Assembly (NCBI RefSeq): GCF_004339085.1
Contig: NZ_SMFX01000001.1
Coordinates: 881,227 to 945,226 of the forward strand
From: Thiogranum longum
Lineage (GTDB): Bacteria > Pseudomonadota > Gammaproteobacteria > DSM-19610
Length of the DNA stretch: 64,000 nt
Direction: 5' to 3'
Position numbers and translations under genes: made by a program. Below the pieces are notes generated by a model. That model saw nothing but the letters and a program-made list of their open reading frames with translations, ran no database searches and had not been told where the DNA came from. Positions 29,308 to 37,971 of the stretch are shown here, piece by piece (position 1 is the stretch's first letter; every line of letters starts with the position of its first letter).

Positions 29308-29841
29308 ATGAGACGTGAGACAAGAACAAACCGCAAACATACGTTCCTGAACGGCTTGCTGTTCCGTCACCAGCCAGGCCAGCCCTTGTCCGTCGTAGTG
29401 AAGGCCGGCCTGGGCGGGTTACTCGCGATTGGTGCCGTAGCATGGCTGAGTCATGTCACTGGAAACCCGTTACTCATGGCGCCATTCGGGGCGACCTGTG
29501 TGCTGTTGTTCTCCGTACCCAATAGCCCACTCTCTCAGCCGGCAAACGTCATCGGTGGGCACCTGGTGTCAACAGCCATCGGGCTCCTGTTGCATATGAT
29601 GTTGCCCGTGGAATGGTGGAGCCTGGGGCTGGCGGTGGGGTTGGCGATTGCAGCGATGGCGGTCCTGCGGGTGACGCATCCGCCCGCGGGGGCAGACCCG
29701 CTGGTGGTGTTCTTCGACAACCCGGGCTGGGTGTATCTGGGATTTCCTGTCGCGTTCGGCGGCCTGGCACTGATAATGATCGCGTGGTTGTTTCACCGTC
29801 TTCCGCCCAGCGTTGTCTATCCGACAACCAAACAGGGCTGA
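29308..29841 (+). CDS. HPP family membrane protein
   Basis: A 177-aa four-helix membrane protein of the HPP family, named for the conserved His-Pro-Pro seen here as RVTHPPAGADPLVVFF (about residues 113-128). Other hallmarks are PLLMAPFGATCVLLFSVPNSPLSQPANVIGGHLVS. Some HPP proteins transport nitrite; this has not been shown generally. A second HPP protein lies at 37249-37971. Its stop codon adjoins the integrase remnant. Confidence 0.88.
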   Translation: MRRETRTNRKHTFLNGLLFRHQPGQPLSVVVKAGLGGLLAIGAVAWLSHVTGNPLLMAPFGATCVLLFSVPNSPLSQPANVIGGHLVSTAIGLLLHMMLPVEWWSLGLAVGLAIAAMAVLRVTHPPAGADPLVVFFDNPGWVYLGFPVAFGGLALIMIAWLFHRLPPSVVYPTTKQG

Positions 29842-34290: not shown

Positions 34291-35286
34291 TCAGGGCACT
34301 GTTGGCCCTGGTTTTCCTTCAAGGTTGGCGCTGACCAGCGTAGCAAGAAAGTCAGTGAAAGGCGCAATATCCTCAGTGCTGCTGGCGGCTTCGAGTGCTT
34401 TCATATAGGCGTCGCGTTCCTCTACAGGAATGACCGTCCACGGATAGCCGCCGGCGGCCAGCATAACATTCATTAAAAACCGTCCCAAGTGCGTCCATTG
34501 CCATCCATATAAGGGTGGATATATACAAACATGAAATGCCCCAGTACAAACCGAACAGCCGGGGATGACAGGCTGTTTTGTTTCAAATGGATCAGATTCG
34601 CGCACGTCATAATCGGCGGCGCGCATCGTTGCCACAATATCGTCTGCCGTGCGATCACGCCCCATATTGCGAAAGGCGCCAGCCAGCCGCCCGGCAATGG
34701 TGGTATGTCCACCTTCAAGGAGTCTTGCAAGGATTTCAGAGGCATCAGAAATAATGGAAAGTGCAGCGCGAATATCGGTCGGGTTTTGTTGAAATAATCT
34801 GGGCGTGCATTCAATCAGGGCTGGCAGCAGGGCATACAGGTTCATGCCATTTTTTGTTTCTATGTCCCGCTTGTCCGGCATGCTGTACCTGACAGTCAAG
34901 AGTGACGTGCCATGGGGGAGTTCTGTGATCTTGTTATCACTCTTCGGCGAACGGACTAAAAGCTGGCGCGGTACGGTGCGGTTACCGGCGTGCAGTTGCA
35001 GGGACGGCTCTGGAGACAGGCACCAGTTTGTGCCAAACCGCTCGTTCAGATATGAAGCGCAAAAATCCCGGAATGAGGCATACCAGGCGGTGCTTTCCCC
35101 GGCCACCTCATCAGGGCGGGACGGGATGTACCACCCTTTCATGACGGGCTGTAGAAAGCCGTTCTTAACAAGGCGTTCCCGGTCGGTACGTCCCAGGTCA
35201 CTTGAGCGGATAGCGACCACGCCAAGATCCTGAAGCGCTTTCAAAGCTTCCAGCGATCGGGCCAGTTTTTCTGAGGGCACAGCCAT
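34291..35286 (-). pseudogene. Fic-family gene with internal deletion and frameshifts
   Basis: The first 245 or so codons (MAVPSEKLARSLEALKALQD...) match the N-terminal winged-helix region of a group of about 500-aa Fic proteins I recall. The middle, about 165 residues, is missing after ESDPFE. The catalytic motif HPYMDGNGR survives at 34491-34517 but in another frame (VLGHFMFVYIHPYMDGNGR); the main frame resumes at GRFLMNVMLAAGGYPWTVIPVEERD. So a single open frame spans the locus by accident while the AMP-transferase site is destroyed. Very likely non-functional. Confidence 0.75.
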
Positions 35287-35460: not shown

Positions 35461-35602
35461 TCGAAAAAAACGATAACAGCATTCAATAAATATCATTATT
35501 CGAATAGCCTGACGCGACCTATAGTCACGCACGACAAAGTAGCTCGATACCGTAAGCAGGTAGCGGCTGTTTGAAAAGAGGTTTTTCTTTCGAGGTGAAG
35601 CA

Positions 35603-36244
35603 ATGATTGCCGTGCGAGTGTTTATGAAATTCACGAATGAACCCCTGAAGCGTACGCCGGTGGTGATTCAAATGGATGCGGATGGTGTTGAGACCGGGCC
35701 GATACCGACCGATCGGACCGGGGTCGCGCATTTCGATTTGCCGCCGGGCAGTGGCAAGGTGCTGGTCTCGGGCGTGGAGCGCTATCACGGTCGCCTTGAG
35801 GGTGAAATTCCCGTGGCGTTGTGGTCTGTCACCGAGTCGGCCAATGAGTCGACCGGTGCACCGGGTGAATTTCCGGCCGGCAGTAATGCCTACCCGGGCA
35901 TGACGACTTGCCCCGTTGAGGTGGAAGGTCGAACGATTCTGACCGACAGTGAGGGCTATCTGGTGAATCCCGCCGACTGGTCGGAGGCATTTGCAAAAGT
36001 TCAGGCTGCGCGTGAGGGGCTGACGCTCACTGGCGAGCACTGGGAGGTTATCCGGTTTCTACGTAAGCACTACGCTGAACACGGTCACCAGGCCAGTGTC
36101 CGTGACATGATCAAACATTTTCGTAAGCTCTGGGATGCGGAGCGTGGCTCCAATCGTTATCTGCATACGCTATTTCCTGTTGGCGGTCCGCAGAAACAGG
36201 GCAACCGCCTTGCCGGACTGCTGCGTACCAAGGGCGAACATTGA
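35603..36244 (+). CDS. DsrC/TusE-like protein with N-terminal extension, lacking redox cysteines
   Basis: A 213-aa protein. Residues 1-75 form a beta-rich domain (MIAVRVFMKFTNEPLKRTPV, then a GVAHFDLPPGSGKVLVSG strand pair) of Ig/carboxypeptidase-regulatory appearance; residues 104-213 are a DsrC/TusE domain (VEVEGRTILTDSEGYLVNPADWSEAF, HWEVIRFLRKHYAEHG, RYLHTLFPVGGPQKQGNRLAGL). Canonical DsrC ends with two redox cysteines; here Asn201 stands at the inner one and the tail ends TKGEH, so both are absent. It is likely regulatory or structural rather than a sulfur carrier. GAGGTGAAG precedes the ATG. Confidence 0.85.
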   Translation: MIAVRVFMKFTNEPLKRTPVVIQMDADGVETGPIPTDRTGVAHFDLPPGSGKVLVSGVERYHGRLEGEIPVALWSVTESANESTGAPGEFPAGSNAYPGMTTCPVEVEGRTILTDSEGYLVNPADWSEAFAKVQAAREGLTLTGEHWEVIRFLRKHYAEHGHQASVRDMIKHFRKLWDAERGSNRYLHTLFPVGGPQKQGNRLAGLLRTKGEH

Positions 36245-36268: not shown

Positions 36269-37132
36269 TCAGGTAACGGAGCCGCTGGTCTGTTCCTGTA
36301 GCGCGAGTTCACGCAATCCGGCAAGGCCCGACTGTAACACCTCACTGTCCGCCTCGCGCGGGAACACCATATAGGCGGGATGCAGAAATTCGGGGGCGTC
36401 AGCCACACGAAACAGGCGGCCGGCCTGAATGAAGGAGCGGGCCATACGGACTGGCAGGAAACAGGAGCCCCCGTTTGCCAGGATGAGCTGAATACCCAGC
36501 CAGCCGATGTTGACGACCTGCGCCGGCCGTTCAAGGTCGGGATAGCTTTCAAGATGCCTGGCATAAAAGCCCGGGCCCCATTCCACGTAAATGTAGTCCT
36601 CACCTGGCCAGCGTGTATCAGGATGCGTGCTGACCATGACCAGTGTCTCGTCGAACAGGCGTTCCACGATCAGGCCCGGCGCGTGGCTCGGCGTGTACAT
36701 CAGCCCGATATCGAGTGTGCCTTCGATCAGTCGCCTCATCAGGTCTTCCTCGAACCCGATCTCGCTGCGGATAGAAACGTCCGGTGCGGTTCGGCGCATC
36801 CAGCCAACCCAGGACGGCAGGAAGTCCTCCCACAAGGCGATACGTCCCCCAACCCGCAGGCTGGCGCTGAAACGGCTGGGCAATCCCACGTCATGGCGCG
36901 CCTGTTCCACGGTCAGCACCAGGGTCTTGGCATGTTGCAGAAAGCGTTGCCCGGCCGGTGTCAGGCTGGCCCCGGCCCGGTTGCGCACAAACAGCCTGGC
37001 ACCCAGTTCATCTTCCAGGTTCTGGATGCGGGCGCTGACGGTCGATTGGGTGACATGCAGGCGCCGGGCTGCCTCCAGGAAACTGCCATGGGCTGCAATC
37101 GCAAGAAAAGTGCGAGCCTGGTCGATATCCAT
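36269..37132 (-). CDS. LysR family transcriptional regulator
   Basis: A 287-aa LTTR. N-terminal HTH: DIDQARTFLAIAAHGSFLEAARRLHVTQSTVSARIQNLEDELGARLFVR (residues 2-50), followed by the periplasmic-binding-like effector domain (about 90-275). It is divergent from the HPP gene at 37249, with two palindromes in between, and convergent with the DsrC-like gene after 24 bases. The effector is unknown; control of the HPP transporter-like gene is the natural hypothesis. Confidence 0.92.
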   Translation of the reverse strand: MDIDQARTFLAIAAHGSFLEAARRLHVTQSTVSARIQNLEDELGARLFVRNRAGASLTPAGQRFLQHAKTLVLTVEQARHDVGLPSRFSASLRVGGRIALWEDFLPSWVGWMRRTAPDVSIRSEIGFEEDLMRRLIEGTLDIGLMYTPSHAPGLIVERLFDETLVMVSTHPDTRWPGEDYIYVEWGPGFYARHLESYPDLERPAQVVNIGWLGIQLILANGGSCFLPVRMARSFIQAGRLFRVADAPEFLHPAYMVFPREADSEVLQSGLAGLRELALQEQTSGSVT

Positions 37133-37153: not shown

Positions 37154-37192
37154 ATATCGAAAATTCCGATATTATCATGAAATATATTTCAT
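37154..37192. promoter_or_regulatory. LysR-type binding sites
   Basis: Two dyads in the divergent intergenic region: ATATCG-N7-CGATAT (37154-37172) and the perfect 16-bp palindrome ATGAAATATATTTCAT (37177-37192). Tandem recognition and activation sites of this spacing are typical for LTTRs. Confidence 0.6.
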
Positions 37193-37248
37193 TAGTCACC
37201 TATAGACTGCACTACTATGATGCAAAACTTCAGCTAAAAGGAGCATTC

Positions 37249-37971
37249 ATGAACCTTGCAGAGTTTCTGGATCTGATCGGTTTTAGCCGTCAAAAAATAA
37301 ATGTCCGTGAGAAATTGCTCTCCACGCTGGGAGGTTTTCTCGGTATTTTCGCTATTTTCATGACCAGCCAGTGGCTGCTGGACCCGGCAGTTTCGGTAAT
37401 GATCGTGCCGTCCATGGGGGCGAGCGCTGTGCTGCTCTTTGCCGCGCCACATGCGCCTTTCTCACAACCCTGGAACGTACTGGGCGGGCACGCAATATCC
37501 GCAGTGATTGGCGTCGCGTGCTGGCAATGGATACCGGACTACGCGGTGGCAGCGTCTGCCAGTGTCGGTCTGGCTATCGGCGCCATGTACTTTGCGCGCT
37601 GCATCCATCCCCCCGTCGGTGCAACCGCGCTGGCTGCCGTGATCGGGTCGGAGAAACTGCATCAGTTGGGTTACGCCTATGAATACGCGCCCATCCTGCT
37701 TAATACGATCACCATACTGCTTGTCGCTATCGCCTTTAACGGGTTGTTCAAATGGCGCCGTTATCCGGTTCATCTGCATTTGAAGCGCGCCGCGCCCGGA
37801 CCGGTCGTCAAGGGGTATGAGCCGATCAATCACGAAGACTTCGTTTATGCCCTGAGTCACATTGATACTTTTGTCGATGTTACCGAGGAGGATCTGCTGA
37901 AAATCTATAAGCTGGCGACCCGGCGGCATGTAGAATCTGGCGCGCGGCCTCAGGGGTACGACCACGGGTAG
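37249..37971 (+). CDS. HPP family membrane protein with C-terminal cytoplasmic domain
   Basis: A 240-aa protein: residues 1-170 are an HPP domain with four helices (SMGASAVLLFAAPHAPFSQPWNVLGGHAISAVIG and ARCIHPPVGATALAAVIGSE), then about 65 extra residues that include a helical cytoplasmic tail. It is longer than the 177-aa paralogue at 29308. Start at 37249 has AAAGGAG upstream. Likely an inner-membrane transporter controlled by the adjacent LysR; substrate not known. Confidence 0.87.
   Translation: MNLAEFLDLIGFSRQKINVREKLLSTLGGFLGIFAIFMTSQWLLDPAVSVMIVPSMGASAVLLFAAPHAPFSQPWNVLGGHAISAVIGVACWQWIPDYAVAASASVGLAIGAMYFARCIHPPVGATALAAVIGSEKLHQLGYAYEYAPILLNTITILLVAIAFNGLFKWRRYPVHLHLKRAAPGPVVKGYEPINHEDFVYALSHIDTFVDVTEEDLLKIYKLATRRHVESGARPQGYDHG

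Follow-up and report, generated by a model that had tools for sequence, protein, structure and literature searches.

A discrete clade of cysteine-free DsrC homologues encoded at the meeting point of nitrogen-oxide metabolism and Dsr-type sulfur oxidation

What is the role of a DsrC-like protein that has lost both of the cysteines by which DsrC carries sulfur? The question is raised by a gene at positions 35603-36244 (+) of the window, i.e. the whole stretch of 64,000 nucleotides of Thiogranum longum DNA analysed here. The open reading frame is uninterrupted, has an ATG start and 213 codons, and is preceded by a ribosome-binding site, GAGGTG (35592-35597, +), five bases 5' of the ATG. In a profile search PF04358 (DsrC) covered residues 106-208 (E 1.6e-32), the NCBIfam model TIGR03342 (dsrC_tusE_dsvC) gave 94.5 bits against a cut-off of 53.5, and the nearest solved sequence was A. 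vinosum DsrC (1yx3, E 3e-22). Profile and fold both place the 213-residue protein in the DsrC/TusE superfamily.

The arm is another matter. Its sequence KQGNRLAGLLRTKGEH is colinear with KQACKxAGLPKPTGCV, and the longer tail GGPQKQGNRLAGLLRTKGEH (36182-36241, +) is in register with GPAKQACKxAGLPKPTGCV of DsrC. Asn201 (codon 36203-36205, +) stands at the position of the inner cysteine, Glu212 (codon 36236-36238, +) at that of the outer, penultimate one, and His213 is the end of the chain; the sole cysteine of the protein, Cys103, lies outside the arm. The two arm cysteines of a functional DsrC are thus missing, and both replacements are invariant or nearly so in the clade described below. The protein does not qualify as a TusE either, with Glu212 at the penultimate cysteine and a score of 91.6 bits in the TusE equivalog model (cut-off 191). 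The initial annotation, made from the sequence of the window, had proposed that DsrC signatures are retained while both redox cysteines are gone, and that the protein cannot carry sulfur as DsrC does; both statements hold.

A frameshift, a misassembly or a decaying DsrC copy could give the same appearance, and a nearby gene (34291-35286, -) does have frame breaks. This explanation is ruled out by full-length homologues, 55-88% identical, which have this same tail and come from dozens of independent assemblies, and we assign it a negligible probability. The hidden cysteine tail that the initial annotation had considered does not exist: the tail GGPQKQGNRxAGxxxxKGEH, free of cysteine, is almost unchanged across 96 distinct homologues, 94 of which end in GEH, and it was the most conserved region in an alignment of 65 members. 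The architecture and tail of the protein recur in about 60 independent records, confirming that this is a real two-domain protein. As for the nearby gene, it is Fic-like, and its HPYMDGNGR motif is in another frame than the rest of the open reading frame, as if two compensating frameshifts flanked the motif; either the gene is decaying or there are local sequence errors.

A tree was built from 113 domains of the DsrC family; in it, the homologues with this tail (the KGEH clade) formed one side of a branch (SH-aLRT 99), with the two-domain members as one group inside the clade (support 84). A second cysteine-free clade, with a tail ending in KGGY, was separate from it (support 97); members of this second clade occur near dsr genes in many genomes, among them that of Thiogranum (L012, minus strand, about 6 kb from dsrC) and loci L208, L210, L216 and L219. 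By its sequence, then, the protein can be classed as a non-redox paralogue of DsrC belonging to a discrete cysteine-free clade with a fixed KGEH tail.

Is the N-terminal half an essential part of this protein family? An AlphaFold2 model built with 65 family members (pLDDT 88, pTM 0.82) shows residues 2-73 as a beta sandwich that a weak linker joins to the DsrC domain (102-203), followed by an arm end of low confidence. The tail is disordered in the model, as expected for a tail of the DsrC type. The initial annotation had described a beta-rich N-terminal region of 100 residues; it is indeed predicted to be beta-rich, but the structured part comprises only the first 75 residues or so, at high confidence, followed by a loose linker of about 25. 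The C-terminal domain with the arm (residues 102-213; 35906-36241, +) was matched by Foldseek to DsrC structures with E values from 5e-9 (1yx3) to 3e-4. The N-terminal domain (residues 1-80; 35603-35842, +; pLDDT about 90 for residues 1-70) matched transthyretin-like proteins weakly (2gpz, E 5.5e-3) and, when used alone, CnaB2 and carboxypeptidase-D regulatory domains with Z 8-9, a value that may reflect a common arrangement only. No Pfam match was found for this domain in the window copy (best in the family, MG4, E 0.005), and a PDB sequence search with its profile gave nothing significant.

In 369 genomes, strong matches to the N-terminal domain were all in KGEH genes, one of them truncated by a contig end. 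The idea of a widespread module was rejected, as there were just weak matches outside these genes: one exported protein, and stand-alone transthyretin-like frames of 72 residues that adjoin a gene for a CysQ-like phosphatase (L150 1498-1716 and L152 1516-1734). Since the start of the 213-residue protein does not resemble a signal peptide, we assume that the protein is cytoplasmic.

The two-domain form was present in the genus Thiogranum and its family and, as the initial annotation had thought worth a search, widely in further sulfur oxidisers, Chromatiaceae among them, with records from Thiocapsa, Thiocystis, Thiorhodococcus, Allochromatium humboldtianum, Imhoffiella, Thiohalocapsa, Thiodictyon, Cocleimonas and Thiohalobacter. 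A form without the N-terminal domain (the single-domain form) was found in Burkholderiales, Hydrogenophilales, Sulfuricaulis and further gammaproteobacteria. Within the family, the form with the beta domain is one variant. The gene of genome G307, which branched at the base as a single-domain form, is probably of the two-domain type and interrupted by the ends of contigs, because its N-terminal half closes a contig 20 bp after narK. In plasmid and phage records only the DsrC part found matches, which were TusE-like or weaker, and the two-domain form did not occur.

To characterise the surroundings of the gene, neighbours within 8 kb were scanned at 81 loci, using a codon-based gene caller; NnrS, Rrf2, CBS and molybdoenzyme genes were identified by Pfam, whereas Nap, Nor, Moe and NsrR were named by eye. 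The LysR regulator seen in the window recurred at 32 of the 81 loci, always on the opposite strand, and an orthologue of it (at least 51% identity) stands beside the two-domain form in 35 loci. Genes for a CBS-domain protein (17 loci), HPP (15) and NnrS (14) were also recurrent; sigma-54-type regulators, Rrf2 (NsrR-like), Nap, Nor-like and molybdenum-cofactor genes were less frequent. In the window the LysR-type regulator (36269-37132, -; PF00126/PF03466) is convergent with the two-domain gene, from which it is usually divergent, and an HPP-family membrane protein follows (37177-37971, +; PF04982, E 2.9e-50). A second HPP-family gene is found at 29308-29841 (+), so that two of them flank the DsrC-like gene within 8 kb. 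The initial annotation had pointed to the LysR/HPP pair and to APS reductase genes as neighbours. Their positions are correct and both members of the pair recur, but apr genes are near the DsrC-like gene in the window alone, and the APS reductase link is incidental.

As the 81 loci were biased towards close relatives, 369 genomes spread evenly over the class were sampled, of which 21 carried the gene (173-205 bits; the next family member reached 121). Locus counts were made by hand from labelled gene lists. In seven of the sampled genomes a single-domain copy lies behind narGHJI, directly in six and after a gene of 136 codons in one; in every one of the seven, narG on the contig of the copy itself exceeded its curated cut-off, and NarH, NarJ and NarI were named by similarity. 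In a further six, the single-domain copy is part of an operon of the narK/nirB/nirD/nasA type. In five of these six nirB was above its cut-off on the same contig, and the nirB and NarK identities were confirmed; the sixth (G204) was assigned from a molybdoenzyme membrane subunit only. All but one of the single-domain copies in nar- and nas-type operons are separated by 11-250 bp from an upstream gene on the same strand. The molybdoenzyme of nas operons at L183-L185, L197, L198 and L206 has a fused FeS/DmsC-like membrane partner of 610-620 residues; this points to a quinol-linked reduction of nitrate, although the operons are otherwise of the assimilatory kind.

Two-domain copies in the sample were near genes for NirK, NnrS and NsrR; for HPP, NnrS and NsrR; for NsrR; near narK; near LysR and PtsP; and, in the window, near HPP and LysR, while one was near NirS and heme-d1 genes (named by eye). 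When only nitrate or nitrite enzymes and NarK were counted, 16 of 21 carriers were positive, compared to 1 of 20 control loci around other DsrC paralogues (Fisher p 3e-6); inclusion of HPP, NnrS and NsrR raised the carriers to 19 of 21 (p 2e-8). The one control locus with nitrate genes, L206, is the nas cluster of Thiogranum itself, which contains another DsrC paralogue, and it was retained in the count. Placement in or next to nitrogen-oxide genes was found across families. The window copy itself is adjoined by HPP and LysR only and is not in a nitrate operon; its genome is without narG, and its nas cluster is about 40 kb away.

That cluster (G000:C1:867767-878191; L206 768-11192) is of the narK-nirB-nirD-nasA type and ends about 3 kb before the window. 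It comprises a divergent narK, nirB, nirD, two molybdoenzyme catalytic subunits and a FeS/DmsC-like subunit of 623 residues, and inside it is a DsrC paralogue with the inner cysteine only (875165-875479), another nitrate-linked DsrC variant. In the related records L116, L119 and L128 a paralogue of this type adjoins the two-domain gene, and in L194 one is near the LysR gene, which ties the two kinds of DsrC protein together. In total the Thiogranum genome has ten DsrC-family genes, the true DsrC and nine others, and in four of the ten, that of the 213-residue protein included, both arm cysteines are absent.

The sulfur-only framing of the initial annotation was thus incomplete, the recurrent partners being nitrate, nitrite and NO genes, but a link to dsrAB does exist. 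With kinship left uncorrected in all three of the following comparisons, dsrA was present in 20 of 21 carriers (two partial) compared to 99 of 348 non-carriers (p 7e-10); among narG-positive genomes the gene was found in 9 of 28 with dsrA and in 0 of 34 without (p 3e-4); and narG or nirB was present in 21 of 21 carriers compared to 39 of 59 other dsr-positive genomes (p 0.001). The one carrier in which dsrA was not found is a MAG of 81% completeness, and a congener of it does have dsrA. Most dsr-positive nitrate reducers are without the gene, which is therefore not essential, and the restriction to Dsr organisms could partly reflect the common ancestry of sulfur oxidisers.

In an Ideonella MAG (L134 331-11170) the KGEH gene follows dsrEFHC-MKLJOP-N and precedes a uroporphyrinogen-III C-methyltransferase gene of the siroheme route. 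DsrE, F, H, C, K and O reached their NCBIfam cut-offs, DsrM and DsrP matched with scores below theirs, and DsrL, J and N were named by position and Pfam. A second Burkholderiales record (L135) has the same end of the dsr operon, dsrN and then the KGEH gene; a third (L133) is short and consistent with it.

The class of explanation offered by the initial annotation, a sensing, decoy or regulatory role, is a sensible one, and we consider that the KGEH protein probably helps to coordinate sulfur oxidation with the use of nitrogen oxides. Our preferred reading, tentative and possible rather than probable, is that it imitates DsrC without redox chemistry, docks on one of the Dsr proteins (most likely DsrAB) when nitrite or NO is present, and thereby slows or shields the Dsr pathway. 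The protein would be made while nitrate, nitrite or NO is handled. Since the DsrC body and the arm length are retained, it may dock at the sites of DsrC; and since the tail is both inert and near-invariant, it would be placed in a specific channel there, rather than reflect a loss of function. In Thiogranum and Chromatiaceae the transthyretin-like domain would probably offer an additional site for binding, and expression of the two-domain gene is probably under the control of the LysR protein encoded beside it. Co-occurrence suggests that the shared target is probably one of the Dsr proteins, because narG (missing in 12 of 21 carriers) and nirB (not above its cut-off in 4 of 21) are not universal in carriers, and dsrA nearly is. 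Siroheme sulfite reductases in general react with nitrite, and the siroheme of DsrAB would do so too. A more specific version, which we regard as rather unlikely, is a brake at the protein level: the cysteine-free mimic would fill the DsrC channel of reverse DsrAB, guard the siroheme from nitrite and halt sulfur oxidation, and the fused domain in purple sulfur bacteria and Thiogranum would add a second input.

DsrC of A. vinosum has reportedly been proposed to bind DNA, and the cysteine-free DsrC homologue RspA to act in the regulation of gene expression, for which no cysteine would be needed. In the same manner the helix-turn-helix-like DsrC body of the KGEH protein might bind DNA or LysR and tune nitrogen-oxide and sulfur genes. 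The LysR orthologues beside the two-domain form, together with NsrR-type regulators beside other copies, argue for such a regulator or co-regulator, which is somewhat unlikely in itself and yet nearly as likely as docking on a Dsr partner. On the other hand, conservation peaks in the flexible tail and not in a DNA-reading helix, and the single-domain form is without a constant regulator partner and stands at the end of enzyme operons. That operon position, behind narI, nasA or the nitrate reductase membrane subunit, would also suit an accessory factor that acts on nitrogen enzymes and not on Dsr, by helping with the insertion or transfer of siroheme or by assembling or guarding NirB, NasA or NarGHI. 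The siroheme enzyme gene nirB in many of the operons, the dsrN and uroporphyrinogen methyltransferase genes on either side of the Ideonella copy, and nirS with heme-d1 genes in one genome point the same way. We nevertheless find an accessory factor somewhat unlikely as well, as no nitrogen enzyme is common to all carriers and none of the 34 narG-positive genomes lacking dsrA has the gene.

Nitrate-coupled sulfur oxidation is of major importance in sediments, in oxygen-minimum zones and in symbioses, and to our knowledge there is no settled account of how siroheme sulfite reductase is protected in the cell against disturbance by nitrite and NO. A cysteine-free DsrC look-alike in narGHJI and nas operons, found almost only in bacteria with dsrAB, provides a concrete candidate for control of this kind, with an invariant tail that offers a simple target for mutation. 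There is also a practical consequence: in such genomes the label 'TusE/DsrC/DsvC family sulfur relay protein' includes proteins unable to relay sulfur, and counting such annotations as dsrC in metagenomes is misleading. DsrC homologues without cysteines were known before, RspA among them, and the Thiogranum genome has three others. A search of the open literature found no paper on a gene of the DsrC type within narGHJI or nas operons, and neither the KGEH clade, its Dsr-dependent placement in nitrate operons nor the transthyretin-like fusion turned up there, nor RspA in any paper on the DsrC protein; a prior mention in subscription papers is possible.

Compared to DsrC of A. vinosum (1yx3), the sulfur carrier and DsrAB partner, the 213-residue protein has the same fold and profile and an arm of the same length and position, with 41% identity over the structural match. 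It differs in Asn201 and Glu212, in KGEH instead of PTGCV, in the extra N-terminal domain and, as a family, in the nitrate-linked context. TusE, of the sulfur relay for tRNA 2-thiouridine, belongs to the same superfamily and provides the best plasmid and phage matches (about 45%), but it needs the last cysteine, which the 213-residue protein does not have (91.6 compared to 191 bits). The predicted fold of the N-terminal domain resembles those of transthyretin-like, CnaB and carboxypeptidase-regulatory domains (Z 8-9), perhaps in general arrangement only; it differs from these domains in that it has no significant sequence family match in the window copy, is presumed cytoplasmic and is fused to a DsrC domain. 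With RspA the protein shares a DsrC fold without arm cysteines. However, it is the KGGY clade near the dsr genes that may be the classical RspA, and the KGEH clade is separate from it in the tree.
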